NCBI GenBank assembly: GCA_022865355.1 | Contig: JALHST010000102.1 | Location: 1 to 36,738, forward strand | DNA length: 36,738 nucleotides | Direction of reading: 5' to 3' | Origin: Maribacter sp. | Lineage (GTDB): Bacteria; Bacteroidota; Bacteroidia; Flavobacteriales; Flavobacteriaceae | Shown here: one piece after another, positions 20,251 through 36,738 of the stretch | How the letters are laid out: each line of letters begins with the position of its first letter | How positions within the stretch are numbered: position 1 is the first letter of the stretch | Made by a program: the position numbers and the translations under genes | Notes under the pieces: model-generated | Databases searched by the model: none | What the model saw: only the letters and a program-made list of their open reading frames with translations | Told to the model about the DNA's origin: nothing

Positions 20251-20760
20251 TCATTCCTTTCGAACACTAAAAAGTGAACCGAATAACAAGCAAAGTACCA
20301 AGGTAGCCGGTCCTATGAAAATTACCTTTTTTAAGATAAGCAATATATTTGCCAAGTTGAAAATTTCCAAAGTAAAGAATACCATATGGTGTATCACTAT
20401 TAATAACGCCAAAAATGTGATTTGTTGTACTTTGGTGGCATTGCCTAGTTTAAAACTTTGGAACTCATAATTTACGCCGAATACAAATCGCATAATTGTT
20501 GGCCTAAAATATGCGATCGTAACCGTCGAAGCAGCATTCAATGCCATGGTATCCAAAAAAAAATCAATGGTAAGTCCCAAAAGAAAACATACGCCAATAA
20601 AAGTCGCTCGGTTCTCCTTAATGGGGTACCAATACAGGAACATTATGTAGACCATTGGGTTAATGAACCCGAAGAAATTCAAGCGGTTGAATATCAAAAC
20701 CTGCACCAGCACCAGTAGTACAAACCGTATGGCATTTATAAAATAATTATTATTGATCAT
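20251..20760 (-). CDS. mreD: Rod shape-determining protein MreD
   Basis: A 169-residue polytopic membrane protein with about five helices, matching MreD in size and position. The start at 20760 (MINNNYFINAIRF) overlaps the mreC stop by 11 bp; an in-frame ATG at 20814 lies deep in mreC and is rejected. Helices are visible at ~10-28, ~33-50, ~58-78, ~100-125 and ~135-160. Assignment rests mostly on the mreB-mreC-x-mrdA-rodA order together with the hydrophobic profile and the FFGFINPMVYIMFLYWYP segment, since MreD sequences are poorly conserved. It is part of the elongasome membrane complex. Confidence 0.88.
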   Translation of the reverse strand: MINNNYFINAIRFVLLVLVQVLIFNRLNFFGFINPMVYIMFLYWYPIKENRATFIGVCFLLGLTIDFFLDTMALNAASTVTIAYFRPTIMRFVFGVNYEFQSFKLGNATKVQQITFLALLIVIHHMVFFTLEIFNLANILLILKKVIFIGPATLVLCLLFGSLFSVRKE

Positions 20761-21571
20761 TCCCGTCGGTCTCTGATTGCAATTGAATAATTTCTGGACG
20801 CCTTTTATTTTCAATGATGTAAACGTAGGAAATGTTTGTCATATCGTTAAAAAGGGCCACCTGAATCGTATACAGGCTATTCGAATTATCTAAATCGTAC
20901 TTTTTTATTGTTCCTATTGGGATATTTTCTGGGAATATACTGCTCATCGCGCCCGTAACGATGGTATCACCGATGGTCAGGGGCACCATTCTAGGAATAT
21001 CTATCAATTGTACTATATTATAATCTTTTGTGTCCCATATTAAGGAACCAAAATTATTGGTACCCTTAATTTTGGCATTTATATTCGAATTCTCGTTTAA
21101 AATGCTTTGCACTGTAGTAAAGTTCTGGGAGGTATTCTCGACAATCCCCAAAATTCCCTTGTCGGTAATAACCCCCATATCAGGCTTGATACTATCCTTC
21201 CTGCCTTTATTGATGGTGATATAGTTTCGTGGATTGGCATAACTATTTTTAATAACCTTGCCAATGATAATCGTGTATTGCCGTTTTGTTGAATCAAGTG
21301 GCACTGAATCTGCGAATCCCATGTTAAACAATTCGTCCCTTAACCTTTTATTTTCTTCAATCAATTTACTATTTTCCTCGTCGAGACCAAAATAGGAGAA
21401 AAAGTTATTCGATGTTTCATATATCCTCCCAGAAACATAATTTGCCGAATTAAAAAAACGGGATTGGTGATAGGAATGCGAGCGAATGGTAAAGACCAGC
21501 GAAAGGGTCAACAGACAGATATAAAGTAGAAAGTTCTTATATCGAATTACAAAGTTGATAATCTGCTGCAT
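20750..21571 (-). CDS. mreC: Rod shape-determining protein MreC
   Basis: A 273-residue bitopic protein. A membrane helix lies at ~13-30, followed by a coiled-coil segment (~60-85, EENSKLIEENKRLRDEL) and the beta-barrel MreC domain in the periplasm (~100-255). Family blocks include ARVIKN-like GKVIKNSYANPRNYITINKG, KPDMGVITDKGILGIV and IPENIPIGTI-type FPENIPIGTIKKY. MreC activates PBP2/RodA and links them to MreB. It is separated from mreB by 133 bp with no clear terminator, and is coupled to mreD by overlap. Confidence 0.94.
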   Translation of the reverse strand: MQQIINFVIRYKNFLLYICLLTLSLVFTIRSHSYHQSRFFNSANYVSGRIYETSNNFFSYFGLDEENSKLIEENKRLRDELFNMGFADSVPLDSTKRQYTIIIGKVIKNSYANPRNYITINKGRKDSIKPDMGVITDKGILGIVENTSQNFTTVQSILNENSNINAKIKGTNNFGSLIWDTKDYNIVQLIDIPRMVPLTIGDTIVTGAMSSIFPENIPIGTIKKYDLDNSNSLYTIQVALFNDMTNISYVYIIENKRRPEIIQLQSETDGNDQ

Positions 21572-21704
21572 CGAAGCTTTTGTTATATAAGATTATTTAC
21601 CCTTGAAGAACCCAAGACTGACGATGTTATTTTTTACTTCCCAAGTATCCCCAGACGCCATGAGTTTGAATAAATGCCGGTAAATAAATGCACCGTTACC
21701 TTGC

Positions 21705-22733
21705 TTATTTAATCAAAATACTTTTGTATCGCTCCAAGTTCTTTAAGGCGATACCGGTACCTCGAACGACTGCACGCAAAGGATCCTCTGCGATATAAAC
21801 GGGCAAATCGGTCTTTTTGGAAAGTCTTCTATCCAGTCCCCTTAACATGGATCCCCCACCGGCCATGTAAATACCTGTGTTGTAGATATCGGCCGCCAAT
21901 TCAGGAGGTGTCTGGGACAAGGTCTCCATAACGGCATCCTCTACACGAAGAATCGATTTGTCCAGGGCCTTTGCAATTTCACGATAGGATATTTGTACTT
22001 GTTTTGGTTTTCCGGTCAATAGGTCACGGCCTTGTACTGATTTATCCTCAGGAGGGTTTTGTAAATCTTCGGTGGCCGAGCCAATATCGATTTTAATATT
22101 TTCAGCCGTACTTTCGCCAACATATAAATTATGCTGGGTCCGCATATAGTAGATGATGTCATTGGTAAATACATCGCCCGCAATTTTGACCGATTTATCA
22201 CAAACGATACCTCCCAGGGCGATAACGGCAATCTCGGTGGTACCTCCACCAATATCGACGATCATATTGCCTTTTGGCTGCATAATGTCCAAACCTATCC
22301 CAATAGCTGCCGCCATGGGTTCATGGATCAAATACACCTCTTTGCCATTGACACGTTCGGCAGATTCCTTTACCGCGCGCATTTCTACCTCGGTAATCCC
22401 AGAAGGGATGCAGATGACCATGCGCAAGGCCGGTGGAAACCATTTTTTCTTCAAGGCGGGGATGTTCTTGATGAACATATTGATCATCTTTTCAGAGGCA
22501 TCAAAATCGGCAATAACGCCATCTTTCAGAGGTCGAATGGTTTTGATGTTCTCATGGGTCTTGCCCTGCATCATACTCGCTTCTTTTCCGACCGCAATTA
22601 TCTTTCCAGTAATTCGATCTCTCGCGACAATGGAAGGACTGTCCACGACCACCTTATCATTATGAATAATAAGGGTATTGGCGGTGCCTAAATCGATGGC
22701 TATTTCCTCAGTCAAGAAATCAAAAAATCCCAT
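21705..22733 (-). CDS. mreB: Rod shape-determining protein MreB (bacterial actin)
   Basis: A 342-residue actin-fold ATPase whose membrane-bound filaments guide lateral wall synthesis. Nucleotide-binding blocks are DLGTANTLI near the N terminus (phosphate 1), DIGGGTTEIAVIALGG in the middle (phosphate 2) and MAGGGSMLRGLDRRL near the end (adenosine). IPSGITEVEMRAVKESAE and LIHEPMAAAIGIG are further signatures. It heads the rod cluster and has a candidate promoter in the 55-bp gap after purH. Length and motifs are complete. Confidence 0.97.
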   Translation of the reverse strand: MGFFDFLTEEIAIDLGTANTLIIHNDKVVVDSPSIVARDRITGKIIAVGKEASMMQGKTHENIKTIRPLKDGVIADFDASEKMINMFIKNIPALKKKWFPPALRMVICIPSGITEVEMRAVKESAERVNGKEVYLIHEPMAAAIGIGLDIMQPKGNMIVDIGGGTTEIAVIALGGIVCDKSVKIAGDVFTNDIIYYMRTQHNLYVGESTAENIKIDIGSATEDLQNPPEDKSVQGRDLLTGKPKQVQISYREIAKALDKSILRVEDAVMETLSQTPPELAADIYNTGIYMAGGGSMLRGLDRRLSKKTDLPVYIAEDPLRAVVRGTGIALKNLERYKSILIK

Positions 22734-22774
22734 TGTGTGTTATTTGGTTTTCGGTTAAACGTGCGTTTCGTCGA

Positions 22775-22782
22775 CAAAAGTA
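22775..22782 (-). promoter_or_regulatory. -7 promoter box for mreB
   Basis: Read on the minus strand this is TACTTTTG, a perfect TAnnTTTG, 41 bp ahead of the mreB start and just past the purH stop. No clear -33 TTG at standard spacing is seen; that region would fall within the 3' end of purH. It suggests mreB does not rely only on read-through from purH. Confidence 0.4.
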
Positions 22783-22788
22783 GTAAAA

Positions 22789-24324
22789 TTAATGCTTGAA
22801 ATGACGTGTGCCTGTCATTACCATCGCAATTCCATTTTGGTTACAATAATCGATACTGAGTTGGTCTTTGATCGACCCACCGGGCTGTATAACACAAGAA
22901 ATACCACTTTTATGCGCTATCTCTACACAATCGGGAAAGGGAAAAAAAGCATCGCTCGCCATGACCGCTCCGTTGAGGTCGAAATGAAATGATTTTGCTT
23001 TGTGAATCGCTTGATTTAGGGCGTCTACCCGGGAGGTTTGGCCCGTTCCACTTGCGCACAATTGTTTATTTTTGGTCAAAACGATGGTGTTGCTCTTGGT
23101 GTGCTTGCATAATTTTGAGGCAAAAATTAAGTCTTCCAACTCTTTTTTCGACGGTCTCTTGTCGGTTACATATTGAAGATCGGATTCCAAATCGGTTTTT
23201 TGGTCCTTATCCTGGACCAAAACGCCGTTCAAGCAAGTTCGTATGCCGGTTTCAGGTAGCGCCGTTTCATGTTGTACCAAAAGAATTCGATTTTTCTTTC
23301 CTTTTAATATGTCAATCGCTGCACCAGCATAACTTGGCGCGATAACGACCTCACAGAATAATTCATGAATTTCTTTGGCCGTTGCGGCGTCGATTTCAAC
23401 ATTGCTTATAAGAACACCGCCAAAAGCGGATACCGGATCTCCGGCCAGGGCATCTATATAGGCTTGCTGAATAGAGTCTCTTGTGGCCAAACCACAGGCG
23501 TTATTATGTTTTAGGATGGCAAAGGTCGGCGCGTCCTTTTTAAATTCGGCCATTAGATTTACGGCGGCGTCTACATCCAATAAGTTATTGTACGACAACT
23601 CTTTTCCGTGTAGCTTGGTAAACATGGCATCTAAATCCCCGAAGAAAAAGCCCTTTTGGTGAGGGTTCTCCCCATATCGCAATACCTTACCCTTGGTTTC
23701 GCTGATCTTTAGGGCAGCTTGTTCATGGGTCTTGTTAAAATAATTAAAAATGGCGGTATCATAATGGGAGGAAACATTGAATGCCTTGGTGGCGAACTTT
23801 TTTCGGTCTTCCATTTTGGTCGTGCCATTACCTGAACTAATCAAAGCTAGAAATTCGCCATAGTCTTCCATCGAGGAAACGCAAAGAACGTCTTTATAAT
23901 TTTTAGCGGCAGCGCGTATCAAGGAAATCCCTCCGATATCTATTTTTTCGATAATATCCTCCTCGGAAGCACCACTTGCCACCGTTTTTTCAAAAGGATA
24001 GAGATCAACGATGACGATATCCAATTGCGGAATTTGAAATTCCTCGAGTTGGGCTATATCGCTCTCATTATCCTGACGGTTTAAGATGCCACCGAAAACC
24101 TTAGGATGTAAGGTTTTTACCCGACCTCCCAAGATAGCTGGATAACTGGTCACCTTTTCTACCGGCACCACTTCAATGCCCAGTTCCTTAATAAATTTTT
24201 CGGTGCCACCGGTCGAGTATATCGTGATTCCCAAGTCTTTGAATTTACGAACTATCGGTTCAAGACCCTCTTTATGGAATACGGAAATTAGAGCCGATTT
24301 GGCTTTTTTTGTGCTCATTTGCAT
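22789..24324 (-). CDS. purH: Bifunctional AICAR transformylase / IMP cyclohydrolase
   Basis: A 511-residue enzyme catalysing the last two steps of purine synthesis: formylation of AICAR with 10-formyl-THF, then ring closure to IMP. The N-terminal MGS-like cyclohydrolase domain (~1-200) shows SALISVFHKEGLE, IYSTGGTEKFI and SLIRAAAKNYKDV. The transformylase domain carries RYGENPHQKG, LKHNNACGLA (catalytic Lys-His) and the C-terminal block MASDAFFPFPDC, ending in GTRHFKH. A second Met two codons in (24318) is an alternative start. Length is normal. A promoter and an inverted repeat lie immediately upstream. Confidence 0.97.
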   Translation of the reverse strand: MQMSTKKAKSALISVFHKEGLEPIVRKFKDLGITIYSTGGTEKFIKELGIEVVPVEKVTSYPAILGGRVKTLHPKVFGGILNRQDNESDIAQLEEFQIPQLDIVIVDLYPFEKTVASGASEEDIIEKIDIGGISLIRAAAKNYKDVLCVSSMEDYGEFLALISSGNGTTKMEDRKKFATKAFNVSSHYDTAIFNYFNKTHEQAALKISETKGKVLRYGENPHQKGFFFGDLDAMFTKLHGKELSYNNLLDVDAAVNLMAEFKKDAPTFAILKHNNACGLATRDSIQQAYIDALAGDPVSAFGGVLISNVEIDAATAKEIHELFCEVVIAPSYAGAAIDILKGKKNRILLVQHETALPETGIRTCLNGVLVQDKDQKTDLESDLQYVTDKRPSKKELEDLIFASKLCKHTKSNTIVLTKNKQLCASGTGQTSRVDALNQAIHKAKSFHFDLNGAVMASDAFFPFPDCVEIAHKSGISCVIQPGGSIKDQLSIDYCNQNGIAMVMTGTRHFKH

Positions 24325-24334
24325 GTGCTTGCGA

Positions 24335-24355
24335 TTACAGGTTCTAGGCCTGTAA
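24335..24355. promoter_or_regulatory. Operator-like inverted repeat upstream of purH
   Basis: TTACAGG (24335-24341) and CCTGTAA (24349-24355) form a perfect 7-bp inverted repeat with a 7-base spacer. It overlaps the proposed -7 box and the expected transcription start of purH, the usual place for a repressor site. I do not recognise the regulator. Confidence 0.45.
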
Positions 24356-24382
24356 AAGTAAATTTTTTAGAAGTAGTATCAA
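24353..24382 (-). promoter_or_regulatory. Candidate promoter for purH
   Basis: On the minus strand TTG (24382-24380), a 19-bp spacer and TACTTTTA (24360-24353) match the Bacteroidota pattern TTG-N19-TAnnTTTG with one mismatch in the last base. It gives a leader of roughly 25 bases before the purH start. Confidence 0.5.
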
Positions 24383-24411
24383 GAGGAGTTTATCAACAAA
24401 AGGATAAACTT

Positions 24412-24864
24412 TTAAAGAATTTTGGCTACTTCCGCTGTTACAAATTCCAAAAAACGCTCATCTTCCTCGGTAAACGGATCGGGAGTGTTTGAGTCAATAT
24501 CGATCTGGCCAATGTTTAGGCCTTTAACGAACACGGGGACAACGATTTCAGCCTTAACGGTAATACTACAAGCAATATAGTTATCCTGTGCGGTAACATC
24601 GGGCACCACAAAGTTTTGGTTGCTCAGGGCGACCTGCCCACAAATGCCTTTACCGAAGGGGATGATGGTGTGGTCGGTAGGTGCTCCGGCATAGGGGCCC
24701 AATTTTAATTCCTCCTTGTCGCCATTCCTGAAATAGAATCCGACCCAATCATAATGCGCAACCTTGTTTTTCAACAATTCACAAATTTCTTGCAATCGGG
24801 CCGATACATCAAGGTTCTTGTTTTTTGTTATGGCGCTAATTTGCGATTTGAGCGTTTTGAACAT
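24412..24864 (-). CDS. GAF domain protein related to free methionine-(R)-sulfoxide reductase
   Basis: A 150-residue single GAF domain protein. The layout follows fRMsr (MsrC): HYDWVGFYF, LKLGPYAG, FGKGICG (Cys75), VPDVTAQDNYIAC (Cys99), AEIVVPVFV and GQIDIDS. By alignment to the E. coli enzyme, Cys99 matches the catalytic Cys118 and Cys75 matches Cys94. The position of the resolving Cys84 is His65. If active on free methionine-R-sulfoxide it must therefore recycle differently; alternatively it is a GAF sensor that has left the family function. It is cytosolic. It lies 87 bp upstream of purH on the same strand and is divergent from the copper locus, with its own TAnnTTTG box. Confidence 0.85.
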   Translation of the reverse strand: MFKTLKSQISAITKNKNLDVSARLQEICELLKNKVAHYDWVGFYFRNGDKEELKLGPYAGAPTDHTIIPFGKGICGQVALSNQNFVVPDVTAQDNYIACSITVKAEIVVPVFVKGLNIGQIDIDSNTPDPFTEEDERFLEFVTAEVAKIL

Positions 24865-24965: not shown

Positions 24966-24973
24966 TACTTTTG
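24966..24973 (+). promoter_or_regulatory. -7 promoter box at the head of the copper locus
   Basis: TACTTTTG, a perfect TAnnTTTG, ends five bases before the ATG at 24979. A TTG occurs 22 bp upstream, slightly wide of usual spacing. Transcription would start at or beside the start codon, so the message is leaderless or begins translation at one of the in-frame ATGs at 24988 or 24991. Confidence 0.45.
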
Positions 24974-24978
24974 CTTCT

Positions 24979-25395
24979 ATGAAAGAAATGATGGGTCGTT
25001 TATTTTCAATGATCATGGCGGTCTTGCTTTTGGCCTCCACGACCTCGTGGACGGTTGGAAAGCATTACTGCATGGGCCGTGTCATGGATGTTTCTTTCTT
25101 CTCGAAGGCCGAGGATTGTGGTATGGACCTGCATCAATCGGCAAATTCACTCACCTACAATTGGGAAAATGCGCATTGTTGTGATGATGAGACCGTGTAT
25201 ATCACGGGTCAAAATGACTTAAAAGTATCACTTGATAAATTGACTTTTGAACAATGTCAATTTATTGCTTCATTGGTATACCATTATATCGATCTGTTTG
25301 AAGGACTACAGGACCATGTAGTGCCTTTCAAATACTACCCGCCTCCCATACTGGTTAAGGAAATTACCATATGGGATCAAGTTTTTCTTATTTAA
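24979..25395 (+). CDS. HYC_CC_PP family protein (putative secreted metal-binding protein)
   Basis: A 138-residue exported protein of a Bacteroidota family named for its conserved HYC, CC and PP motifs. All are present: HYC at residues 29-31, HCC at 66-68 and PPP at 121-123, plus Cys47 in DCGMD and Cys93. Residues ~6-25 form a hydrophobic signal segment, so the Cys/His sites would face the periplasm. The chemistry suits binding of Cu(I) or a similar soft metal, though no function is established. It is the first gene of the copper/silver efflux locus, 101 bp ahead of the RND pump gene. Starts at 24988 and 24991 are alternatives. The metal-chaperone role is inferred from residues and neighbours only. 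Confidence 0.82.
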   Translation: MKEMMGRLFSMIMAVLLLASTTSWTVGKHYCMGRVMDVSFFSKAEDCGMDLHQSANSLTYNWENAHCCDDETVYITGQNDLKVSLDKLTFEQCQFIASLVYHYIDLFEGLQDHVVPFKYYPPPILVKEITIWDQVFLI

Positions 25396-25415
25396 TATCA
25401 TAATTGAGGTCTTGT

Positions 25416-25436
25416 CATGCTGAACCAATCAGCATG
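25416..25436. promoter_or_regulatory. Palindrome CATGCTGA-N5-TCAGCATG upstream of the RND pump gene
   Basis: CATGCTGA (25416-25423) and TCAGCATG (25429-25436) are a perfect 8-bp inverted repeat with an ACCAA spacer. It ends 15 bp before the -7 box at 25452, so it overlaps the -33 region of that promoter, a typical operator position. A caution: TCATGCTGAA...TCAGCAT sequences also occur as dispersed repeats in flavobacterial genomes. Confidence 0.5.
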
Positions 25437-25451
25437 GCTTTTGGCATCTGA

Positions 25452-25459
25452 TACCTTTG
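25452..25459 (+). promoter_or_regulatory. -7 promoter box for the RND efflux operon
   Basis: TACCTTTG is a perfect TAnnTTTG, 37 bp before the pump start codon, giving a leader of about 33 bases. There is no good TTG at -33; the palindrome at 25416-25436 occupies that place, which would fit a promoter needing an activator. Confidence 0.45.
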
Positions 25460-25496
25460 AACTATTCTTCACGGTTCAATCACTATTATTCATATT

Positions 25497-28400
25497 ATGT
25501 TAAATAGAACAATAAAATACTTCTTAGAGAACAAGCTGGTTACATTCCTTATTTTAGGTTCATTTGTAGCCTGGGGTATTGTCACATCCCCCTTCGATTG
25601 GGAAACGGGCTTTTTGCCGAAAGATCCTGTACCTGTAGATGCCATTCCCGATATTGGTGAGAACCAGCAAATAGTCTTTACCGATTGGCCGGGAAGATCA
25701 CCTCAAGATATCGAAGATCAAATCACCTATCCATTGACTACCTCCCTTTTAGGGATTCCTAACGTTAAATCGATTCGAAGTACCTCGATGTTCGGCTTTT
25801 CAAGTATCTATGTCATTTTTGACGAAAAGGCCGAATTTTATTGGTCAAGATCCAGGGTTCTCGAAAAATTGAACTCCCTTCCCTCCAATTTATTACCGGA
25901 AGAGGTACAACCAACCCTTGGTCCCGATGCCACTGCCTTGGGACAAGTATTCTGGTATACTTTGGAAGGACGTGATTCAGTTGGGAATGTCACAGGCGGT
26001 TGGGATTTGCACGAATTACGTACTGCTCAGGATTATTATGTAAAATATGCTCTTAATGCTGTTTCAGGGGTATCGGAAGTTGCTTCGATAGGGGGTTACG
26101 TGCAAGAATACCAGGTCGATGTCAATCCCGATGCCTTAAAAGCATTTAATATAGGAATTGATATGGTTATGATGGCGGTCAAAAATTCGAACCGCGATAT
26201 CGGGGCAAAGACTATAGAAGTGAACAAGGCCGAATATTTGGTTCGTGGGCTGGGATATATAAAGAAGGTTGAGGATCTTGAGAGTACCGTGGTGACCGTC
26301 AATAATAACAAGCCCATTCTTATCAAGGATATAGGCGTAGTGTCCATCGGACCGGCAGCCAGTAGGGGCGTGTTGGATAAAGGAGGAGCCGAAGTCGTAG
26401 GGGGTGTCGTCGTGGCACGGTATGGCTCCAATCCGTTGGAAGTCATAAACAAGGTCAAGGGAAAAATTAGGGAAGTAGCCCCAGGATTGCCTAAAAAAGT
26501 ACTGGCCGATGGCACGACTAGCCAGCTAACTATAATCCCATTTTACGACCGGACCCAACTGATCGAAGAAACCATTGGCACCCTTGAAACCGCTTTATCC
26601 CATGAGATATTGATCAGTATTATTGTGGTTTTGGTATTGATGCTCAATTTACGGGCATCTATTATCATTTCAAGTTTACTACCTGTCGGCGTGTTGATGA
26701 CTTTTATTGTTATGCGTTATACCGGGGTAGATGCCAATGTAGTGGCACTATCGGGAATTGCAATTGCCATAGGGGTCATGGTAGACATTGGGATTGTATT
26801 TGTCGAGAATATTATTCGTCATCTCGATATGCCCGAAAATCAAGGTGTACGAGGAAAAGAACTGATGCATGTAATTTACGAAGCAACCAAGGAAGTGGCT
26901 TCTGCCATTACGACCGCCCTGGCAACGACGGTTGTGAGTTTTATACCGGTATTTGCGATGGAATCTGCGGAGGGAAAACTTTTTAGACCCTTGGCCTTTA
27001 CCAAAACCTTTGCCTTGTTGGGAGCTTTTATTTTAGGTATTGTTGTGCTCCCCGCATTCGCACATCTTGTTTTTGGAATCCAATATGATAAAAAAAGAAT
27101 ACAAAGACTTTTTAGTACTATACTGATAATAGGAGGCCTGCTATTGGCTCTCTATGCCCAAATGTGGCTTCCCCTGGCATTATGCCTTATCGGCGCCAAT
27201 AATCTATGGGGACATCATTGGCCTATCGCGTATGCCAAATATACTCAGCATATTAATTTAGTGCTAACCCTGTTTATAACGACCTACTTCTTGACCGAGG
27301 AATGGATGCCCTTGGGGCCACAGAATAGCATTCTGGTCAACTACTTGTTTGTGTTGATAATAATGGGCTTGATATTGGGGTCCTTATGGTCGATAGTTTA
27401 TAACTATGAAAAGGTGCTTTCATGGTGTTTGGTGAACAAAGGTAAATTTATGTTGATTCCCTTGGTGACGATACTTCTTGGTCTTTTGATTTGGATCGGT
27501 TTTAATAACACCTTTGGTTTTATGGCCAGAGGGATGGACAAAATCGGACTTAATATCAAGTCTTCCAGTGCATGGTCTTCGGCGGTACATACTTTTCCAG
27601 GAATAGGTTCTGAGTTTATGCCGGCATTAAATGAGGGGAGTTTCCTCTTAATGCCCACTTCCATGCCACATATTGGGGTCGCGGAAAGTAAAAAAATAGT
27701 GCAACAATTGGATATGGCATTGGCCAATATACCAGAAGTTGACAACGCAGTAGGAAAAATGGGAAGGGTGGAGAGCGCCTTGGATCCGGCACCGATATCC
27801 ATGTATGAGAATATCATTAACTACAAACCTGAATATATTATAGCCCCTGATGGGAATCCCAAACGCTTTAAAGTTGATGACCAAGATCGTTTTGTCCTTG
27901 GGGCCGGTGGCGTACTAACCAATGCAGATGCCTTGAACAAGGGAATCACCGAAATAGAGCTGGTATTAGATGAAAATGGGGAATATTATAGAAATTGGCG
28001 TCCTGAAATCAAGAATGCCGATGATATATGGCAGGAAATTGTCAAAGTAACAAAGATTCCTGGGATAACATCGGCTCCTAAATTGCAGCCCATAGAAACA
28101 CGATTGGTGATGCTTCAAACAGGGATGAGGGCACCGATGGGGATTAAGGTGTACGGTCCCGATTTAAAAACCATTCAAGATTTTGGGGAGCAACTGGAGG
28201 CTGTTTTAAAAGAGGTCCCTTCGGTTAAACGGGAAGCGGTTTTTGCCGATAGAATTGTTGGGAAACCTTATTTAGAGCTTACGATTGATCGGAATGCCAT
28301 CGCCCGATATGGCCTTAGTGTTGAGAAGACCCAACAGATCATTGAAACCGCCATAGGGGGTATGGAAATTACGACCACGGTCGAAGGAAGGGAACGTTAT

Positions 28401-29312
28401 CCGGTCAGGGTAAGATATCCCAGGGAATTAAGGGATGACCCCGATAAAATAAAAAAAATACTGGTGCCTACGCCAAGTGGAGCCCAAGTACCCTTGGGAG
28501 AGCTGGTGACCGTACAATATACGCGTGGGCCTCAAATGATTAAAAGCGAAGACACCTTTTTGGTTGGCTATGTGCTTTTTGACAAGAAAGATAATTATGC
28601 CGAAGTAGACGTAGTCAATGAAGCCCAGCGTTTTATACAACAAAAAATTGATGCCGGCACCTTAGTGGTTCCCAAAGGAACCAGTTATAAATTCTCAGGT
28701 AGTTACGAAAACCAGATACGGGCCGTAAAAAGATTATCGATCGTAATCCCGATCAGTTTGCTCATTATCTTCTTGCTGCTATTCTTTCAGTTTAAAACGG
28801 TTATTGCTTCATCCATTCATTTTTCAGGAGTGTTCGTGGCTTTTGCAGGGGGCTTTATTATGCTGTGGTTGTACGGTCAGGATTGGTTTCTGAATTTTTC
28901 TATTTCAGGAGTAAATATGCGGCATTTGTTCCAAATCCACCCCATAAATCTAAGTGTCGCCGTATGGGTAGGGTTTATTGCCCTTTTCGGTATTGCGACC
29001 GATGACGGAGTAATCATGGGCACCTATATCCATCAGGTATTTGAAGAAAAAAAACCGACAAGTGTAGCTGAGGTCAGAGCTGCTGTCCTCATCGCAGGAA
29101 AGAAAAGGGTACGGCCTGCCATGATGACCGCTGCAGTTGCCATCATTGCCCTTTTACCGGTGTTGACCTCCACAGGGAAAGGTGCCGACATCATGATTCC
29201 CATGGCCATCCCAACATTCGGAGGGATGGTTATTCAACTTATGACCATGTTCGTTGTACCTGTGCTACAATCGTATTGGCGGGAAACGGTCGTCAAAAAA
29301 ATTGAAAGATGA
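25497..29312 (+). CDS. cusA: CusA/CzcA family heavy-metal efflux RND transporter
   Basis: A 1271-residue proton-driven inner-membrane pump that drives metal through a tripartite complex to the outside. RND blocks include PVDAIPDIGENQQIVFTDWPGRSPQDIEDQITYPL near the N terminus (in part), GIAIAIGVMVDIGIVFVEN in TM4 with the proton-relay Asp, and GIATDDG in TM10. Met719, Met769 and Met872 align with the Cu/Ag-binding Met573/623/672 of E. coli CusA, and the first two are exactly 50 residues apart in both. Two stretches are extra: a hydrophobic block at ~535-640 with about three to four added helices, and ~54 residues between the last two Met. The next gene overlaps by ATGA. Copper/silver specificity is inferred from the Met set and the neighbours. 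Confidence 0.94.
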   Translation: MLNRTIKYFLENKLVTFLILGSFVAWGIVTSPFDWETGFLPKDPVPVDAIPDIGENQQIVFTDWPGRSPQDIEDQITYPLTTSLLGIPNVKSIRSTSMFGFSSIYVIFDEKAEFYWSRSRVLEKLNSLPSNLLPEEVQPTLGPDATALGQVFWYTLEGRDSVGNVTGGWDLHELRTAQDYYVKYALNAVSGVSEVASIGGYVQEYQVDVNPDALKAFNIGIDMVMMAVKNSNRDIGAKTIEVNKAEYLVRGLGYIKKVEDLESTVVTVNNNKPILIKDIGVVSIGPAASRGVLDKGGAEVVGGVVVARYGSNPLEVINKVKGKIREVAPGLPKKVLADGTTSQLTIIPFYDRTQLIEETIGTLETALSHEILISIIVVLVLMLNLRASIIISSLLPVGVLMTFIVMRYTGVDANVVALSGIAIAIGVMVDIGIVFVENIIRHLDMPENQGVRGKELMHVIYEATKEVASAITTALATTVVSFIPVFAMESAEGKLFRPLAFTKTFALLGAFILGIVVLPAFAHLVFGIQYDKKRIQRLFSTILIIGGLLLALYAQMWLPLALCLIGANNLWGHHWPIAYAKYTQHINLVLTLFITTYFLTEEWMPLGPQNSILVNYLFVLIIMGLILGSLWSIVYNYEKVLSWCLVNKGKFMLIPLVTILLGLLIWIGFNNTFGFMARGMDKIGLNIKSSSAWSSAVHTFPGIGSEFMPALNEGSFLLMPTSMPHIGVAESKKIVQQLDMALANIPEVDNAVGKMGRVESALDPAPISMYENIINYKPEYIIAPDGNPKRFKVDDQDRFVLGAGGVLTNADALNKGITEIELVLDENGEYYRNWRPEIKNADDIWQEIVKVTKIPGITSAPKLQPIETRLVMLQTGMRAPMGIKVYGPDLKTIQDFGEQLEAVLKEVPSVKREAVFADRIVGKPYLELTIDRNAIARYGLSVEKTQQIIETAIGGMEITTTVEGRERYPVRVRYPRELRDDPDKIKKILVPTPSGAQVPLGELVTVQYTRGPQMIKSEDTFLVGYVLFDKKDNYAEVDVVNEAQRFIQQKIDAGTLVVPKGTSYKFSGSYENQIRAVKRLSIVIPISLLIIFLLLFFQFKTVIASSIHFSGVFVAFAGGFIMLWLYGQDWFLNFSISGVNMRHLFQIHPINLSVAVWVGFIALFGIATDDGVIMGTYIHQVFEEKKPTSVAEVRAAVLIAGKKRVRPAMMTAAVAIIALLPVLTSTGKGADIMIPMAIPTFGGMVIQLMTMFVVPVLQSYWRETVVKKIER

Positions 29313-30607
29313 GAGATTTAGAATATACTGTAGTAAAGAGGCCCGCCCTTGCTTGTTGGGGCATGCCAAAACAAATTGCACAAGTGCTATTAATCAGTCT
29401 ATTTTTGATAGGTATGGTTTCAAAAGTCCATGCGCAATCCCTGGAAGAATATATAGGGATCGCCACTCAGAACAATCCGGAAGTGAAAACGGCCTACGTT
29501 AAATTTGAAGCGGCCATGCAAAAAGCACCGCAGGTAATGGCATTGCCAGACCCAACAATCACTATGAGTGCCTTCGGGCGAATGATCGAAACCAGAATAG
29601 GCAGACAGGAAGCGAGATTTAGCCTTATGCAAATGTTTCCCTGGTTCGGTACACTTTCCGCTAAGGAAAATGTTGCCAACCTACTGGCCGAAGCCGCTTT
29701 CCAAAACTATTTGGATACCCGGAATGAAGTCATTCTCAAGCTAAAGGAAACCTATGCCGAACTATATGAATTGCGTCAAATGATTCAATTGGAAAAGGAG
29801 AATCTATCAATCTTAGAAACCTATCGAAAATTGGGACTAAGTAATTTTAGTACTGGGAAAGGAACTATGGTCGATGTCGTACGCATTGATATTGACCTAA
29901 ATAAAAGCAGGACAACCTTGGAGATCCTGGAAGGAAAGGAAAGGCCCCTACAGATTTCTTTTAATACCCAATTGAATCGAGGATTGGATGAAATGATAGC
30001 GGTACCCAATAATTTAACCTTGGGAAAAGTAATTGATAGGGTAGGCATAGATAGCCTGTTCGAAGTGAATCCTAAGCTTGTAGGATTGGAAAAACAAATG
30101 GCGTCTTATGAAGCACAACAATTACTTTCAAAAAAAGAAGGATATCCAATGATCGGTCTTGGTGTAGACTATTCCATAATTGGACAACGGGATATACCCA
30201 ATCTCGACATGAACGGGCAAGATGCCATTATGCCCATGCTCACGCTAACCCTTCCAATTTACAGAAAAAAGTATAGAGCCTCTCAAAAGGAGGCAGAATT
30301 GATGGTACAAGCCGTAACGAGTGAAAAACAGGCCGTAAAGAATAGTCTTTACAGCGAATATACGAATGCGGTTTTCGATTTGTCAAAAGCGGGACAACTT
30401 AAGAACCTCTATCGAAAACAAACGGAAAGTACCGAACAAGCGATTCAGTTATTATTGGTTGGGTTTAGTAATAACACCTCCGATTTTGAGGAAATACTAA
30501 GAATGAACCAAGACCTGCTCCTTTACAAAACGGCCATGGTTGCCGAAACAAAAAACGAGTTTGCGGCACAATCAAAAATAGATTATTTACTTTCTAAAGC
30601 GGAATAA
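29309..30607 (+). CDS. TolC family outer membrane efflux channel (CusC-like)
   Basis: A 432-residue outer membrane factor forming the exit duct of the RND complex. The mature part starts near SLEEYIGIATQNNPEVKTAY, followed by two repeats of long amphipathic helices (OEP domains; LKLKETYAELYELRQMIQLEKEN and ASQKEAELMVQAVTSEKQAVKN in part). The start overlaps the cusA stop (ATGA). However, a proper signal peptide only appears from Met19 (MPKQIAQVLLISLFLIGMVSKVHAQ region, ATG at 29363), so translation may begin there. It is followed after one base by the adaptor gene. Cognate use with the neighbouring pump is inferred from the operon. Confidence 0.92.
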   Translation: MRDLEYTVVKRPALACWGMPKQIAQVLLISLFLIGMVSKVHAQSLEEYIGIATQNNPEVKTAYVKFEAAMQKAPQVMALPDPTITMSAFGRMIETRIGRQEARFSLMQMFPWFGTLSAKENVANLLAEAAFQNYLDTRNEVILKLKETYAELYELRQMIQLEKENLSILETYRKLGLSNFSTGKGTMVDVVRIDIDLNKSRTTLEILEGKERPLQISFNTQLNRGLDEMIAVPNNLTLGKVIDRVGIDSLFEVNPKLVGLEKQMASYEAQQLLSKKEGYPMIGLGVDYSIIGQRDIPNLDMNGQDAIMPMLTLTLPIYRKKYRASQKEAELMVQAVTSEKQAVKNSLYSEYTNAVFDLSKAGQLKNLYRKQTESTEQAIQLLLVGFSNNTSDFEEILRMNQDLLLYKTAMVAETKNEFAAQSKIDYLLSKAE

Positions 30608-30608
30608 G

Positions 30609-32390
30609 ATGAACGAGAAAAATAAAAACATACTGAAAATGGCGGGTATACTTTTCGTCGGACTTCTATTAGGATGGGTGCTTTTTGGCGGTAATAAGGC
30701 GGAAAACGCTGGCCATGATCACCCTACCGAAGTATCGGAGAATACGATTTGGACCTGTTCGATGCATCCCCAAATCAGACGGTCGGAACCAGGGAAATGC
30801 CCGATTTGTGGTATGGACTTGATCCCCTTGGAAACCAATGATGGCAATACCAACCGTATGGCGATACAAATGACTGAAGACGCTATGAAATTAGCAAATA
30901 TTCAAACCATGCTTGTTGGGGCCAGGGAAGCAAATAAAAATGTTCGCCTGAATGGCAAGATTCAGGTGGATGAACGCAAATTATACCAGCAACCAACCCA
31001 TATTCCCGGCAGGATAGAACAATTGAACATCAATTTTACGGGTGAAAAAGTTAATCGCGGCGAGCTATTGGCCATGATCTATTCGCCGGACCTAGTGACC
31101 GCACAGGAAGAACTTCTCCAGGCTAATAGTATAAAAAATACGCAGCCTGAACTCTTCGAGGCTGCTAAACTGAAATTGTCGAATTGGAAAATTGGTGAAG
31201 GAACCATCGACAAGATACTGAATACGAGAGCCATAATTCAGCGATTTCCGATAACCGCAGACGTGTCTGGCGTGGTTATGAGCAAGAAGGTTGAAGTAGG
31301 GGATTATGTAGATAGGGGCATGCCATTATATGAAATTGCCGACCTTTCATCGGTATGGGTACTGTTCGATATTTATGAGACCGATATTCCCTGGGTGAAA
31401 ATAGGGGATCCTGTTACCTATACCGTTCAATCATTTCCAGGTGAAACTTTTGAAGGTAAAATTAAATTTATTGACCCGCTGATCGATCCCGAGACTAGAG
31501 TAGCCTCAGCGCGTGTGGAAGTTAAGAACACCGAGAATAGGCTAAAACCTGAAATGTTCGTGTCAGGCACCCTCCAAAGTAATTTGGGCAAAGCTGCCGC
31601 TCAGGAAATTATTGTTCCCAAATCGGCAGTGATGTGGACCGGTGAACGATCTATCGTTTATCTAAAGGAGGTCGTACAAAACAAAATTAATTTTACATTA
31701 CGCGAAGTGATCCTGGGACCTTCCCTAGGTGAGGCCTATGTAATAAAATCAGGTCTTCAAAATGGGGATGAAATTGTGGTAAATGGCACTTTTACGATTG
31801 ATGCCGCTTCGCAATTGGCAGGGAAGCCAAGTATGATGGACCCACAAGGAGGCAGCGTTATGACCGGGCATAGGCATGATGGCGTAGTGATGCCTTCACC
31901 GATGCAGACCTCTCAAAAAGCCATAGACTATACCATACCAATCAGTCAGGAAGCTAAAGAGGCCCTTAAGCCTCTTTTTACGGCATATTTCGCTATGAAA
32001 GATGCCCTGACGAATGATCAGATGAAAGAAGCGCAAAGGGCCGCCACCGAAATACTAAAAGGTATTGAAGGGATAGATATGACCTTATTTAAGGACGAAT
32101 CCCACGATGTATGGATGGGTTTAAGCAGTAATCTGAAAAACACCATGCAACAGTTAGCAAACTTAAAAACTATTGCAGAAGTTAGAAAAGCTTTTCAACA
32201 GATTTCAAATGATATGATCAGTTTGGAAAATGTATTTCGGCCCTATGGGGAAACCACCTATGTGATTCATTGCCCCATGGCGGATAGTAATAAGGGAGGA
32301 GATTGGTTAAGTACTTCAAAGGAGATTCGAAATCCGTATTTCGGTCATTCGATGCTTACGTGTGGGGAAGTAATTAAAGAAATAAAATAG
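30609..32390 (+). CDS. Efflux RND periplasmic adaptor with heavy-metal-binding and DUF3347 domains
   Basis: A 593-residue CusB-type membrane fusion protein linking pump and channel. Residues ~8-27 are a membrane anchor, then a His-containing linker (AGHDH). The heavy-metal-binding domain is at 48-75, with Cys50, Met52, His53, Cys64, Cys67 and Met69 (TCSMHP...CPICGMDL). The barrel-sandwich, beta-barrel and membrane-proximal domains span ~90-410 (VNRGELLAMIYSPDLVTAQEE; ETRVASARVEV). A His/Met-rich linker (TGHRHDG, MPSPM) follows, then a DUF3347 domain at ~444-593 ending in HCPMA and MLTCGEV. The two extra domains are typical of Bacteroidota copper adaptors and probably load metal into the pump. 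It starts one base after the TolC gene. Confidence 0.93.
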   Translation: MNEKNKNILKMAGILFVGLLLGWVLFGGNKAENAGHDHPTEVSENTIWTCSMHPQIRRSEPGKCPICGMDLIPLETNDGNTNRMAIQMTEDAMKLANIQTMLVGAREANKNVRLNGKIQVDERKLYQQPTHIPGRIEQLNINFTGEKVNRGELLAMIYSPDLVTAQEELLQANSIKNTQPELFEAAKLKLSNWKIGEGTIDKILNTRAIIQRFPITADVSGVVMSKKVEVGDYVDRGMPLYEIADLSSVWVLFDIYETDIPWVKIGDPVTYTVQSFPGETFEGKIKFIDPLIDPETRVASARVEVKNTENRLKPEMFVSGTLQSNLGKAAAQEIIVPKSAVMWTGERSIVYLKEVVQNKINFTLREVILGPSLGEAYVIKSGLQNGDEIVVNGTFTIDAASQLAGKPSMMDPQGGSVMTGHRHDGVVMPSPMQTSQKAIDYTIPISQEAKEALKPLFTAYFAMKDALTNDQMKEAQRAATEILKGIEGIDMTLFKDESHDVWMGLSSNLKNTMQQLANLKTIAEVRKAFQQISNDMISLENVFRPYGETTYVIHCPMADSNKGGDWLSTSKEIRNPYFGHSMLTCGEVIKEIK

Positions 32391-32463: not shown

Positions 32464-33084
32464 ATGAAGAAAGCAAAAATAGCGACTTGGATTTTTACAA
32501 TGACATTTGTGACTTTGACCGCACTGTCTTGCAAGGAAAATAAAAATAATCAACCAAGGGAAGTGGAACATGGATCGGAGATGCATGGGGCAGAAAGTCC
32601 CCATCAGGACGATAACTCAGTGGATACTTCCTCCGAGACTACGATGGCCAGTAGTCAATCATTGCCGACAGTATCTTCAATTTTGACCGCTTATTTGCAG
32701 CTAAAAGAGGCTTTGGTAGCCGATGATACACAAAGCGCTGCCAAAAAGGGAGAGGCTTTGATTGTCGCCTTGAATAATTTTGATAATTCTAAATTTACGA
32801 ACGAGCAAAGATCGAAACTAAATGATATTGTTGAAAATGCGACCATTCACGCTAGGGATATCTCAAAAGCTAGCCTTGACCTTCAACGAGATCACTTTAA
32901 ACTTTTAAGCGGTGATCTAATCGAATTGGTGGCCATAACGGGATCGCCAATCACATTATATCAACAATTCTGTCCAATGTATGATCAAGGTAGTGCTTGG
33001 CTAAGCGCCAGTAATGAGATTAAAAACCCCTACTATGGCAGTAAAATGTTAAATTGTGGTGTTGTAAAGGCAACGATTCAATAG
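32464..33084 (+). CDS. DUF3347 domain lipoprotein, putative periplasmic copper binder
   Basis: A 206-residue exported protein. The N terminus (MKKAKIATWIF then a hydrophobic core and ALSC) looks like a lipoprotein signal with Cys23, though Ala at -3 is atypical. Residues ~35-60 are acidic and rich in His and Met (EHGSEMHGAESPH). Residues ~70-206 are a DUF3347 domain with helices LTAYLQLKEALVADD and the C-terminal block FCPMYDQGSAWLSASNEIKN followed by MLNCGVV. The CPM and NCG motifs match those at the end of the adjacent adaptor, so this is a stand-alone paralogue of that domain. It probably shuttles or buffers metal in the periplasm; this is inferred. It follows the adaptor by 73 AT-rich bases. 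Confidence 0.88.
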   Translation: MKKAKIATWIFTMTFVTLTALSCKENKNNQPREVEHGSEMHGAESPHQDDNSVDTSSETTMASSQSLPTVSSILTAYLQLKEALVADDTQSAAKKGEALIVALNNFDNSKFTNEQRSKLNDIVENATIHARDISKASLDLQRDHFKLLSGDLIELVAITGSPITLYQQFCPMYDQGSAWLSASNEIKNPYYGSKMLNCGVVKATIQ

Positions 33085-33207: not shown

Positions 33208-35721
33208 ATGCCGATGAAACACAAATATCAAATTGACGGGATGACCTGCGATGGTTGTCGTTCTCATGTTGAGAACGTACTGAATGTTATCGAGGGGGTA
33301 AAAAAAGTAAGCGTAGATCTAGCAAGTAAAGTGGCCGAAATAGAGATGGATTCCCATATTCCCCTATCAGTTTTTCAGGAGGCTTTACAAAAAGATGGCG
33401 GGGCCTACGGTATCCGTATGCCCGGTGACCCGCATTCCCATAATGAAAAATCTACATCAGAAAAAATTAGCGGATCAAAGGGGAAAGGTACATTTTATTG
33501 TCCCATGCGATGCGAAGGGGATAAAACCTATGACCTTCCTGGAGATTGCCCGGTATGTGGGATGGATTTGGTTGAGGAAGTTGACCTTAGGTTGGGGTCG
33601 GCAACCCAGTACACTTGTCCCATGCATCCAGAAATCATACGGGATGCCCCCGGGTCGTGCCCCATCTGTGGCATGGATCTGGTTCCCATGCAACCCGATA
33701 CTTCAGCAGAAGAACTTAAGTATAAAAAGCTTTTAAAAAAGTTCTGGATCGCCATGGCATTCACCCTTCCGATTTTCCTTTTGGCCATGGGTGAAATGTG
33801 GCCTGGGAATCCTTTGCACAGGCTGTTGTCAATGAAAAACTGGAATTGGGTACAATTCGGATTGTCCTTACCGGTAGTTTTTTATGCGACCAGGATGTTC
33901 TTCGAAAGGGCCTATAGGTCTATTATAACCTGGAATCTGAACATGTTTACACTTATTGGCATCGGTGCCGGGGTGGCTTGGACTTTTAGTGTCTTCGGGA
34001 TGCTTTTCCCCGATTTCTTTCCACAGGAATTTAAGTCGGAAGCGGGTACCGTACATGTGTATTTTGAAGCGGCCACCGTAATTCTGACTTTAGTGCTTTT
34101 GGGCCAAGTACTGGAAGCCCGGGCACATAGCAAGACCAACTCGGCCGTAAAGGAGCTTTTGAAATTGGCACCGAATAAGGCGATACGGGTCGTTAATGGG
34201 AATGATGAAGAAATTGTCATTGACGCCATAAAGGTAGGCGATGTCCTACGGGTAAAACCGGGCGATAAAATCCCGGTAGATGGTACGATTACCGAAGGGG
34301 AAACGTCAGTAGATGAATCTATGATAACCGGCGAACCCATTCCTGTGACGAAATCGGTTTCGGATAAAGTAAATAGTGGCACCATTAATGGCAATCAGTC
34401 CTTTTTGATGACTGCTGAGAAAGTAGGTAGCGATACGTTGCTTTCCCAAATCATACACATGGTGAATGAAGCGAGTCGCAGCAGGGCGCCAATTCAGAAT
34501 CTTGCCGATAAGGTATCTGGGTATTTTGTCCCGGTAGTCGTGTTAATCGCCATCATCACCTTCGTGATTTGGGCACTCTGGGGTCCAGAACCATCCTATG
34601 TATACGCTTTGGCAAATGCCATTGCAGTATTGATTATTGCTTGCCCATGTGCCCTAGGACTAGCAACCCCTATGAGCGTAATGGTCGGTGTTGGCAAGGG
34701 CGCACAAAATGGCATCCTTATAAAAAGTGCGGAGGCCTTGGAAAAAATGAATAAAATACAGACCCTGATCATAGATAAAACCGGTACCATTACTGAAGGA
34801 AAACCAAAAGTTGAAAAAATTGGGTATTTCAAGGATGAGTTTACAGAACAGCAAGTATTACAATATATCGTTTCTATAAACCAATTTAGTGAACATCCGT
34901 TGGCGGAGGCAAGCGTGGCGTACGGGAAAGAAAAAGGCGTGAAATTATTGAAGGCGGAGAATTTTAAGTCCGTTAGCGGAAAAGGGGTAGAAGCCACGGT
35001 CAACAATAAAAAGGTATTCCTAGGCAACACTAAGATGATGGCAGATGCCGCGACCGAAGTATCTAAAGATTTACGGCAAGAAGCGGAATCTTTTCAAAAA
35101 CAGGGAAAAACCGTTTCCTATCTGTCGATCGAGGGGCAGGCTGCAGGGTATATGGTCATCGGGGATGCCATCAAGAAATCTAGTATACAGGCCATCAAGG
35201 AATTACAGGATATGGGAATAGAGGTCATCATGTTGACCGGGGATAACAAGGAAACGGCCGCGGCAGTGGCCAAGGAATTACATCTCACAGGGTATCGGGC
35301 GGGCATGTTACCGGAAGACAAATTGAAGGAAGTTGAAAAATTACAAAAAGAGGGTAAAGTGGTAGCCATGGCGGGCGATGGCATCAATGACGCCCCGGCA
35401 CTGGCCAAAAGTGATGTTGGTATCGCTATGGGTACGGGTACCGACGTGGCCATCGAGAGCGCTGGTATTACTCTGGTGAAGGGCGATTTACAGGGCATTG
35501 TACGTGCCCGAAACCTCAGTGGGCTAGTGATGGGAAACATCAAACAAAACCTATTTTTCGCCTTGGTTTATAACACTATCGGAGTCCCGATCGCGGCCGG
35601 GGTGCTGTTTCCTTTCTTTGGCGTGTTATTATCTCCCATGATTGCGGCAGCGGCTATGAGTTTTAGTTCGGTTTCGGTGATAGGGAATGCCCTTCGTTTG
35701 AGAACAGCGAAACTATCGTAA
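33208..35721 (+). CDS. copA: Copper-translocating P1B-type ATPase with HMA and two heavy-metal-binding domains
   Basis: An 837-residue metal pump exporting Cu(I) (or Ag(I)) from the cytosol. N-terminal domains in order: HMA domain with GMTCDGC (Cys14, Cys17), a His-containing linker (DPHSHNE), then two heavy-metal-binding domains at 96-122 (YCPM...CPVCGMDL) and 134-161 (TCPMHP...CPICGMDL). The ATPase core has Cys479-Pro-Cys481 in the membrane metal site, TGEPIPV, DKTGT with phosphorylated Asp523, the SEHP nucleotide motif and [10 protein letters not shown]. The last helices carry [11 protein letters not shown] and [15 protein letters not shown], the Cu(I) subgroup signature. The start may be Met1 or Met3. 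It is the last gene of the locus and lies after a hairpin, so it may be separately adjusted. Confidence 0.95.
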
Positions 35722-36440: not shown

Positions 36441-36513
36441 TTGTTAAAAAGAATAATGATAACTAGCTCATAAAAAGCAATTTACAAAAGAAAAAAACCT
36501 AATTTTAATTGAA
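36441..36513 (+). promoter_or_regulatory. Conserved leader element of the second H1-like gene
   Basis: TTGTTA (36441-36446), 12 bases, ATAACTA (36459-36465) and TTTTAATTGAA (36503-36513) repeat the arrangement seen at 35914-35986, with the same spacing to the start codon. The two leaders can be aligned over 91 bases without a gap. Confidence 0.55.
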
Positions 36514-36531
36514 TATCTAAAATAATAAAGG

Positions 36532-36738
36532 ATGGCAACGACAAAAAAACCGGCAGCTAAGAAAGCGCCAGCAAAAAAAGCCGCTCCCAAGGCAGCGGCC
36601 AAGAAGACTCCTGCAAAGAAGGCTCCTGCAAAAAAAGCCGCTCCCAAGGCAGCGGCCAAGAAGGCTCCTTCCAAGAAGGCTCCTGCAAAGAAGGCTCCTG
36701 CAAAGAAAGCTCCTGCAAAGAAAGCTCCTGCAAAGAAA
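36532..36738 (+). CDS. Histone H1-like Ala/Lys/Pro-rich protein (3' partial)
   Basis: The first 69 codons of a gene that runs off the window. It starts MATTKKPAAKKAPAKK and continues in Ala, Lys, Pro with rare Thr and Ser, like the C-terminal tail of histone H1 and bacterial H1-like nucleoid proteins. It contains a 12-residue block encoded by an exact 36-bp repeat (36571-36606 and 36628-36663). From 36664 there is a tandem array of a 15-bp unit encoding APAKK (APSKK in the first copy), five copies to the window end. The start is fixed by the leader shared with the 29-residue paralogue. A non-specific DNA-binding, chromosome-condensing role is inferred from composition. The repeats make the gene prone to length change. 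Confidence 0.82.
   Translation, partial: MATTKKPAAKKAPAKKAAPKAAAKKTPAKKAPAKKAAPKAAAKKAPSKKAPAKKAPAKKAPAKKAPAKK
36571..36738 (+). repeat. Internal coding repeats of the H1-like gene
   Basis: Two exact copies of a 36-bp unit (36571-36606, 36628-36663) lie 57 bp apart. They are followed by five 15-bp units of the form GCTCCTGCAAAGAAR (36664-36738; the first unit has TCC for GCA and AAG for the first AAG/AAA choice). Near-identity at the DNA level, including codon choice, points to recent duplication by slippage or recombination. Confidence 0.85.

Follow-up and report, generated by a model that had tools for sequence, protein, structure and literature searches.

HYC_CC_PP, a probable leader gene sensing metal through its nascent chain, with distinct RNA and promoter features

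The copper transport locus and its first gene

The stretch of DNA analysed here (hereafter the window) comprises 36,738 nucleotides of contig JALHST010000102.1 of a Maribacter sp. genome (GCA_022865355.1). On its forward strand, a small ORF precedes a set of metal transport genes. The features of the locus are the following:

24966..24973 (+): predicted -7 promoter box TACTTTTG, fitting TANNTTTG/TAHHTTTG and ending 5 nt before the leader ATG (sequence and family statistics)
24979..25395 (+): HYC_CC_PP ORF, putative leader, 138 aa, TAA stop (ORF and profile)
25063..25071 (+): HYC motif, codons 29-31 (H 89%, C 98% among 131 rows)
25117..25119 (+): C47 codon (96% among 131 rows)
25177..25182 (+): CC motif, codons 67-68 (99% and 100% among 131 rows)
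25339..25347 (+): PPP, codons 121-123, possible slow-translation site (P122 92%, P123 95% among 131 rows)
25384..25395 (+): C-terminal FLI, conserved in the family alignment, and stop codon
25388..25398 (+): candidate 5' strand of P1, a long-range stem; it overlaps the stop codon and forms 11 bp, two of them G-U, and alone is not significant in the window
25414..25438 (+): hairpin of 10 bp with a loop of 5 nt and TTTT directly after it (25439-25442)
25497..25507 (+): candidate 3' strand of P1, containing the cusA ATG (window RNA fold)
25497..29312 (+): CusA-type RND transporter, the presumed controlled gene (PF00873, 575 bits)
29309..30607 (+): outer-membrane efflux protein (OEP, CusC-type; PF02321)
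30609..32390 (+): CusB-type adaptor with HMBD and DUF3347 (PF16576, PF19335, PF11827)
32464..33084 (+): DUF3347 protein (PF11827)
33208..35721 (+): P1B-type ATPase with HMA and two HMBD matches (PF00122, PF00403, PF19335)

The ORF at 24979-25395 is a real reading frame from ATG to TAA. The first-pass annotation had placed it directly ahead of a Cu/Ag pump, and a CusA-type RND gene indeed follows after a gap of 101 nt. The P1B-type ATPase runs in the same direction and probably belongs to the same gene cluster as cusA. A divergent GAF-domain gene lies upstream of the ORF. This genome has one intact copy of HYC_CC_PP, a second copy that is broken and lies on a short contig (locus L002), and, separately, one marginal profile match (E 0.08) with stops. 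The L002 locus (L002:567-1260, contig C306) is a degraded HYC-cusA pair: the leader remnant carries stops, the start of cusA runs into a DUF3347-like tail, and the gap has a similar CATG hairpin. At the end of the window, a repetitive frame (FFAGAFFAGAF...) occupies positions 36468-36737 of the reverse strand.

The family identity proposed in the first-pass annotation was borne out by a match to HYC_CC_PP (NCBIfam NF047658) over residues 7-138, with 106 bits against a curated cut-off of 28 (E 1.9e-30). The motifs that it had named are present (HYC at 29-31, DCG at 46-48, HCC at 66-68 and PPP at 121-123), but the protein holds five cysteines (C31, C47, C67, C68 and C93) instead of the six reported. 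A hydrophobic N-terminus, signal-peptide-like by eye, precedes the motifs and is a putative export signal. Against Pfam, nothing was matched at E<=0.01 and DUF2797 alone at E<=1; against the PDB, no meaningful relative was obtained (best E 1.3). A search with the window protein alone recovered one related locus (L214), and an AlphaFold model built from the alignment of these two sequences, which are 48% identical, reached a mean pLDDT of 47.9. The protein has no CXXC motif and carries YPPP where the CruR family has RAPP. It did not match the profile of DUF2946 (PF11162), the CruR family, at E<=0.01, and membership in that family was rejected on this test. Regarding the rules given for CutF-like proteins in the available part of their survey (PMC9973294), its 138 aa lie below the limit of 150 aa, but with 15 residues after P123 it falls outside the rule that Pro-Pro be within 15 residues of the C-terminus. 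Judged by profile, the window protein is thus a clear member of HYC_CC_PP and stands outside DUF2946.

Conservation, promoter and genomic neighbours across the family

Of 296 genomes sampled from the phylum, 91 contain HYC_CC_PP (84 above the cut-off). It was also detected in 15 of the 21 genomes of the relatives search, own genome counted, and in 135/149 genomes of one genus of the window's family. Among 14 named control genomes, one was matched, Bacteroides ihuae. The analysis covered 144 members with about 16 kb around them, and 20 control regions of similar size from the same genomes. Excluded were three loci in which the ORF caller recovered no member (L125, L138 and L153, the match in the latter holding stop codons), one false hit in L152, and L001-L003, which are a duplicate or fragments of the own genome.

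Protein conservation was assessed on 131 of 132 rows under 75% identity, the mis-started L145 being omitted. Mean column identity is 18%, and six columns alone reach at least 90%: C31, C47, C67, C68 (96-100%), P122 and P123. C93 is outside the conserved columns. The number of mature cysteines is most commonly five (62/144) and six in 30/144. Among the 129 members having both CC and PP, 86 show a distance of 54-57 residues between them. Of the 130 members with PP, 100 have 12, 15 or 16 residues after it and 27 have at most 13; 14 of the 144 lack a Pro-Pro near the end. The last residue is isoleucine in 108/144, or 79% in the 132-row set, compared with 18-49% for the most frequent final residue of six neighbouring families. 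Conservation is therefore confined to four cysteines, the Pro-Pro and the C-terminal tail. When the 131 members were searched against Pfam, every matched family hit at most four of them, and DUF2946 was absent among the 25 families listed of 70. DUF2946 itself occurs in 5/148 genomes of the phylum, at places other than HYC.

The region upstream of the gene is also distinctive. With member starts picked by distance to the HYC motif and hence independently of the box, 68/144 members have a TAHHTTTG -7 box that ends 2-10 nt upstream of the ATG, compared with 7/1280 other clustered genes; the other 76 members have no box at this distance. The TANNTTTG form was found within 80 nt in 94 of the 144 members and in 113/1171 other genes. 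According to the available parts of PMC6847099 and PMC9723704, the -7 box occupies positions -12 to -5, leaderless mRNAs make up 5.5% in F. psychrophilum, and in F. johnsoniae leaders of more than 10 nt are found on 87% of the predicted transcripts. Since the box abuts the ATG and sits at -12 to -5, the sequence predicts a nearly leaderless mRNA whose start is no more than a few nt from the ATG. Translation start in Bacteroidota is described as proceeding without Shine-Dalgarno sequences in the accessible text of PMC6847099.

A bias was likewise observed in the stop codon. In loci assigned to the window's family, 47/56 leaders end in UGA as compared with 66/581 other genes there, and in the remaining loci the figures are 39/88 and 105/622, respectively. 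The window leader ends in UAA, unlike this bias.

Among the 143 members with a following gene in view, 138 have this gene in the same direction. Neighbour labels are Pfam assignments made on one or two proteins per cluster, so that errors within clusters are possible (cluster 34 was called HMA by motif only); copper-type denotes RND/OEP, CusB-like, HMA protein, DUF3347, P1B ATPase, multicopper oxidase and MauE-HMA. By these labels, a copper-type gene lies in the co-directional downstream run of 121/144 members, while the 20 control regions gave none and a single TonB receptor. The survey of neighbours for copper genes that the first-pass annotation had suggested thus came out in favour of a metal link. 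Copper-type or TonB receptor genes are found downstream in 128 of the members and anywhere in the fetched locus in 140/144; 16/144 downstream runs have neither. A co-directional gene is present less than 100 nt upstream in 44/144 members, and 22 of these represent two conserved Flavobacterium-like settings; there, the leader is only presumed to be the first gene.

The partnership with RND pumps proposed in the first-pass annotation proved too narrow. RND/OEP genes are indeed found in 61/144 downstream runs, but 46/144 have a TonB receptor instead. In a protein tree which has few columns for its rows and whose bootstrap is not settled, two members of the window's five-row clade (support 100/99) stand before AraC-then-P1B runs and the others before an RND pump, an HMA cluster and a TonB receptor; five downstream labels require 40 changes against 69.4 after shuffling. 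A simple RND partner was dropped on these neighbour counts and the tree. Because the downstream operon types differ even within the window's clade, the leader is re-used ahead of differing transport genes.

Several further arrangements were seen. In the window's family, HYC is often located at one chromosomal place by an mre/purH/GAF-gene cluster (window 20251-24864; for instance L055-L069 and L154-L160), and the operon behind it varies (RND, TonB receptor, HMA). HYC genes at L077:5484-8147 and from L162:6520 onward stand ahead of cytochrome c, a porin-like protein and a small lipoprotein-like gene, not copper transport genes. Two divergent HYC genes lie close together in L074 and L163, one before an RND operon and the other before an AraC-type regulator, related copies of which show a CxxC-like motif at the N-terminus.

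RNA structure between the leader and the next gene

The gap behind the leader has a median of 90 nt (137 gaps), compared with 15 nt for 441 other gene pairs of the same operons, where neighbour starts come from a simple ORF caller and single gaps may be off. It is also more strongly folded than its shuffles, with a median z of -2.74 (126 gaps) compared with -1.13 for 153 other gaps of at least 30 nt.

A long-range stem, P1, was defined on an alignment of 40 of 43 loci, about 39 of the sequences belonging to one genus. L015 was omitted for its different ending, and L019 and L020 as strongly divergent, like CusA-type members; for two more loci, L230 and L239, no leader end was obtained. The alignment leans to one kind of member, 30 loci being the best scorers of 149 genomes. 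P1 comprises 13 bp; its 5' strand is made up of the stop codon plus the 10 nt after it, and its 3' strand stops about 8 nt short of the next ATG. Pairing is kept in 94.6% of cells, compared with 29-49% in slid controls. Covariation was detected as changes on both sides at 5 pairs and in 15 cells, where shuffling gave 1.5 and 3.3, and none of 500 shuffles reached either value. RNAalifold gave a near-zero consensus energy, because the inner hairpins do not align, but retained seven P1 pairs.

Across the whole family, the strands differ in sequence and yet fit their own partner. The mean duplex energy with the own partner is -11.14 against -6.85 with permuted partners (z -19.9), and for other gaps -7.82 against -6.49 (z -6.8); since the permutation keeps differences in base composition between genomes, these scores are partly compositional and the other gaps provide the fairer yardstick. 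Without stop and start codons, the values are -6.7 against -3.43, and -5.04 against -4.07 for the other gaps. Stems of at least 9 bp were found in 63/127 gaps where 14.3 were expected, and in 17/131 other gaps where 7.0 were expected, meaning that the other gaps of the same operons likewise exceed the null, though more weakly. The remaining 64 of the 127 gaps have no P1-like stem of this length. When the leader end up to stop+13 was held clear, 31% of members, compared with 5% of other gaps, showed an opening of the next start that exceeded 0.2.

In the window, the fold of 25390-25510 has a z of -2.99 (2/200 shuffles as good) and contains, besides the 10-bp hairpin (25414-25438), a stem that closes onto the cusA ATG. 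Holding the same region clear raised the openness of the cusA start from 0.36 to 0.53. P1 of the window alone is not significant (own-shuffle p 0.78, stop and start excluded; 16.5% of foreign partners fit better). No Rfam match was obtained near the window leader at E<=1, and among eight related loci the gathering threshold was passed by two tRNAs only. That P1 can cover the start region of the next gene is thus supported for the family, and in the window it is a candidate stem.

A proposed cis-acting leader and comparable known systems

From this material, we consider it fairly likely that HYC_CC_PP acts in cis as a translated leader which links expression of copper transport operons to the copper met by its nascent, exported chain. 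The reading builds on the position at the head of copper operons, the box abutting the ATG, the structured gap, the covarying P1, the UGA bias and the conservation of cysteines, Pro-Pro and tail. Transcription would begin at the leader ATG or a few nt from it, as the promoter box suggests. The leader would be exported during its synthesis, and its H-C, C and CC motifs would then bind Cu(I)/Ag(I). The computed pairing of P1 between the leader stop region and the next start region, with hairpins between, would hinder initiation. A ribosome at the leader end would cover the 5' strand of P1 and leave the next start free, so that open P1 would be the on-state. Metal binding to the nascent chain would set how long the ribosome dwells at the leader end, either by relieving a slow Pro-Pro step or by delaying termination. 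For an efflux operon such as that of the window, high copper is expected to give more pump, and the finished leader protein may be dispensable.

The position of the Pro-Pro speaks against a simple form of this leader model. It lies 12-16 codons before the stop, and a ribosome held there would not reach P1 and would leave it closed, whereas a hold at the stop would open it; copper would therefore have to relieve a Pro-Pro pause or prolong the dwell at the stop. Furthermore, the N/H/Y-x-PP contexts of HYC_CC_PP members may not arrest the ribosome, because a change from RAPP to AAPP abolished the arrest of CruR in vitro (PMC12992588, available text). A single regulatory sign for all operons is doubtful, since the same type of leader heads pump and TonB-receptor operons, which are not expected to answer copper alike. 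Also weighing against the model are the members lacking a Pro-Pro near the end, a box at 2-10 nt or a P1-like stem of at least 9 bp, the downstream runs with neither copper-type nor TonB genes, the weaker excess of pairing in other gaps, and, for the window, the insignificance of its P1 alone and its UAA stop.

We put forward only tentatively the most complete form of the proposal, a copper switch used throughout Bacteroidota. There, a near-leaderless mRNA would open with the sensor gene, the metal-loaded nascent chain would delay termination at a mostly UGA stop, and the held ribosome would melt the covarying stem that hides the next start; such a switch would serve RND efflux, TonB-receptor, P1B and multicopper-oxidase operons in a phylum without Shine-Dalgarno sequences.

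Of the alternatives, transcription attenuation is the most probable, even if it is rather unlikely. Stalling or release of the ribosome would let Rho or an intrinsic terminator act in the gap, for which CruR offers a precedent (PMC9426467, as far as its available part goes), and TTTT directly follows the window hairpin 25414-25438. However, P1 extends to the next start region and does not end in a U-run, and by eye a U-run is missing right behind most of the listed hairpins.

A mature periplasmic chaperone or sensor handing Cu/Ag to the CusB/CusA complex, close to what the first-pass annotation had in mind, would make good use of the putative export signal, the four conserved cysteines with histidine and the copper-operon neighbours. 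We regard it as improbable: RND genes occur in fewer than half of the downstream runs (61/144), the clade of the window heads four kinds of operon, little is conserved besides cysteines, Pro-Pro and C-terminal tail, and the conserved promoter, gap and RNA features would be superfluous for a chaperone. Sensor may be the correct word, yet the conserved anatomy suits a nascent chain acting in cis better than a mature chaperone; a chaperone role in addition to the leader role is possible. Plain translational coupling, in which P1 opens as the leader is translated and the protein sequence senses nothing, is hardly probable, for although P1 overlaps the stop codon and would alone be enough to couple the genes, cysteines and Pro-Pro are the most conserved columns, the CC-to-PP spacing is tight and copper-type runs are headed in 121/144 cases.

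If the cis-acting leader reading is correct, a curated family becomes a testable regulatory device, and a possible route for tuning copper efflux and TonB-receptor operons in Bacteroidota is identified. The covarying stem and the promoter feature can each be mutated separately. A chaperone role would not be the first thing to seek, and knock-outs of HYC_CC_PP would disturb copper genes through cis effects. Nascent-chain metal sensing would also be extended to a phylum from which RAPP/RGPP uORFs of copper genes are reported missing in the available text of PMC12992588.

According to the first-pass annotation, the family is not known to have a demonstrated function, and a literature search by the name HYC_CC_PP found no paper; mechanistic analogues, CruR and CutF, are however published (PMC9426467, PMC9973294, in the parts available). 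The accessible parts of PMC12914433 and PMC9723704 do not mention the family, and in the literature on copper arrest peptides and CutF in Bacteroidota no other paper describes it, as judged by titles and the start of abstracts.

A further family of the phylum, DUF6660 (PF20365), was found in 20/99 genomes. It shares with HYC_CC_PP the small cysteine-rich protein, a PP motif near the end and a following RND gene (18/20 loci), and differs by CSPFCxCxCC, mostly WQPPK near the end and mostly a UAA stop. Its profile matches one HYC member weakly (E 0.017). It looks like a second leader family (L247-L266), with the -7 box just before the ATG in some loci; a search by the name DUF6660 found no paper. 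TnaC is a short cytoplasmic peptide which senses tryptophan and, depending on this ligand, holds the ribosome at the UGA stop of the leader. Termination arrest of this type is one way of reading the UGA bias of HYC_CC_PP, with the difference that TnaC involves neither metal nor export.

CruR of Bordetella pertussis (bp2923, DUF2946) resembles HYC_CC_PP as first gene in copper operons, by a long gap (162 nt in CruR), by a fixed spacing between cysteine motif and Pro-Pro, and by a protein presumed to be short-lived. CruR differs by its CXXC, the RAPP three residues before the end, action by Rho termination and a copper response that switches genes off (PMC9426467, available part), and among the Pfam families listed for HYC_CC_PP members DUF2946 does not occur. 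CutF of Rhodobacter capsulatus is likewise a small exported leader with a metal motif and a Pro-Pro near the C-terminus; it heads metal operons, and its gap RNA is able to cover the ribosome-binding region of the next gene. The survey of CutF places CutF-like proteins in Bacteroidota, ahead of RND and TonB genes, and the general idea of such leaders in this phylum is therefore already published (PMC9973294, as presented in its available part). HYC_CC_PP differs from CutF by HYC, C and CC motifs instead of CxxxC, 12-16 residues after the Pro-Pro, a phylum without Shine-Dalgarno sequences, a P1 that joins the stop codon with the next start, the box abutting the ATG and the UGA bias. As far as the available accounts of CruR and CutF go, the leader logic proposed here matches that of these published nascent-chain copper sensors, and the sequence and the RNA are different.
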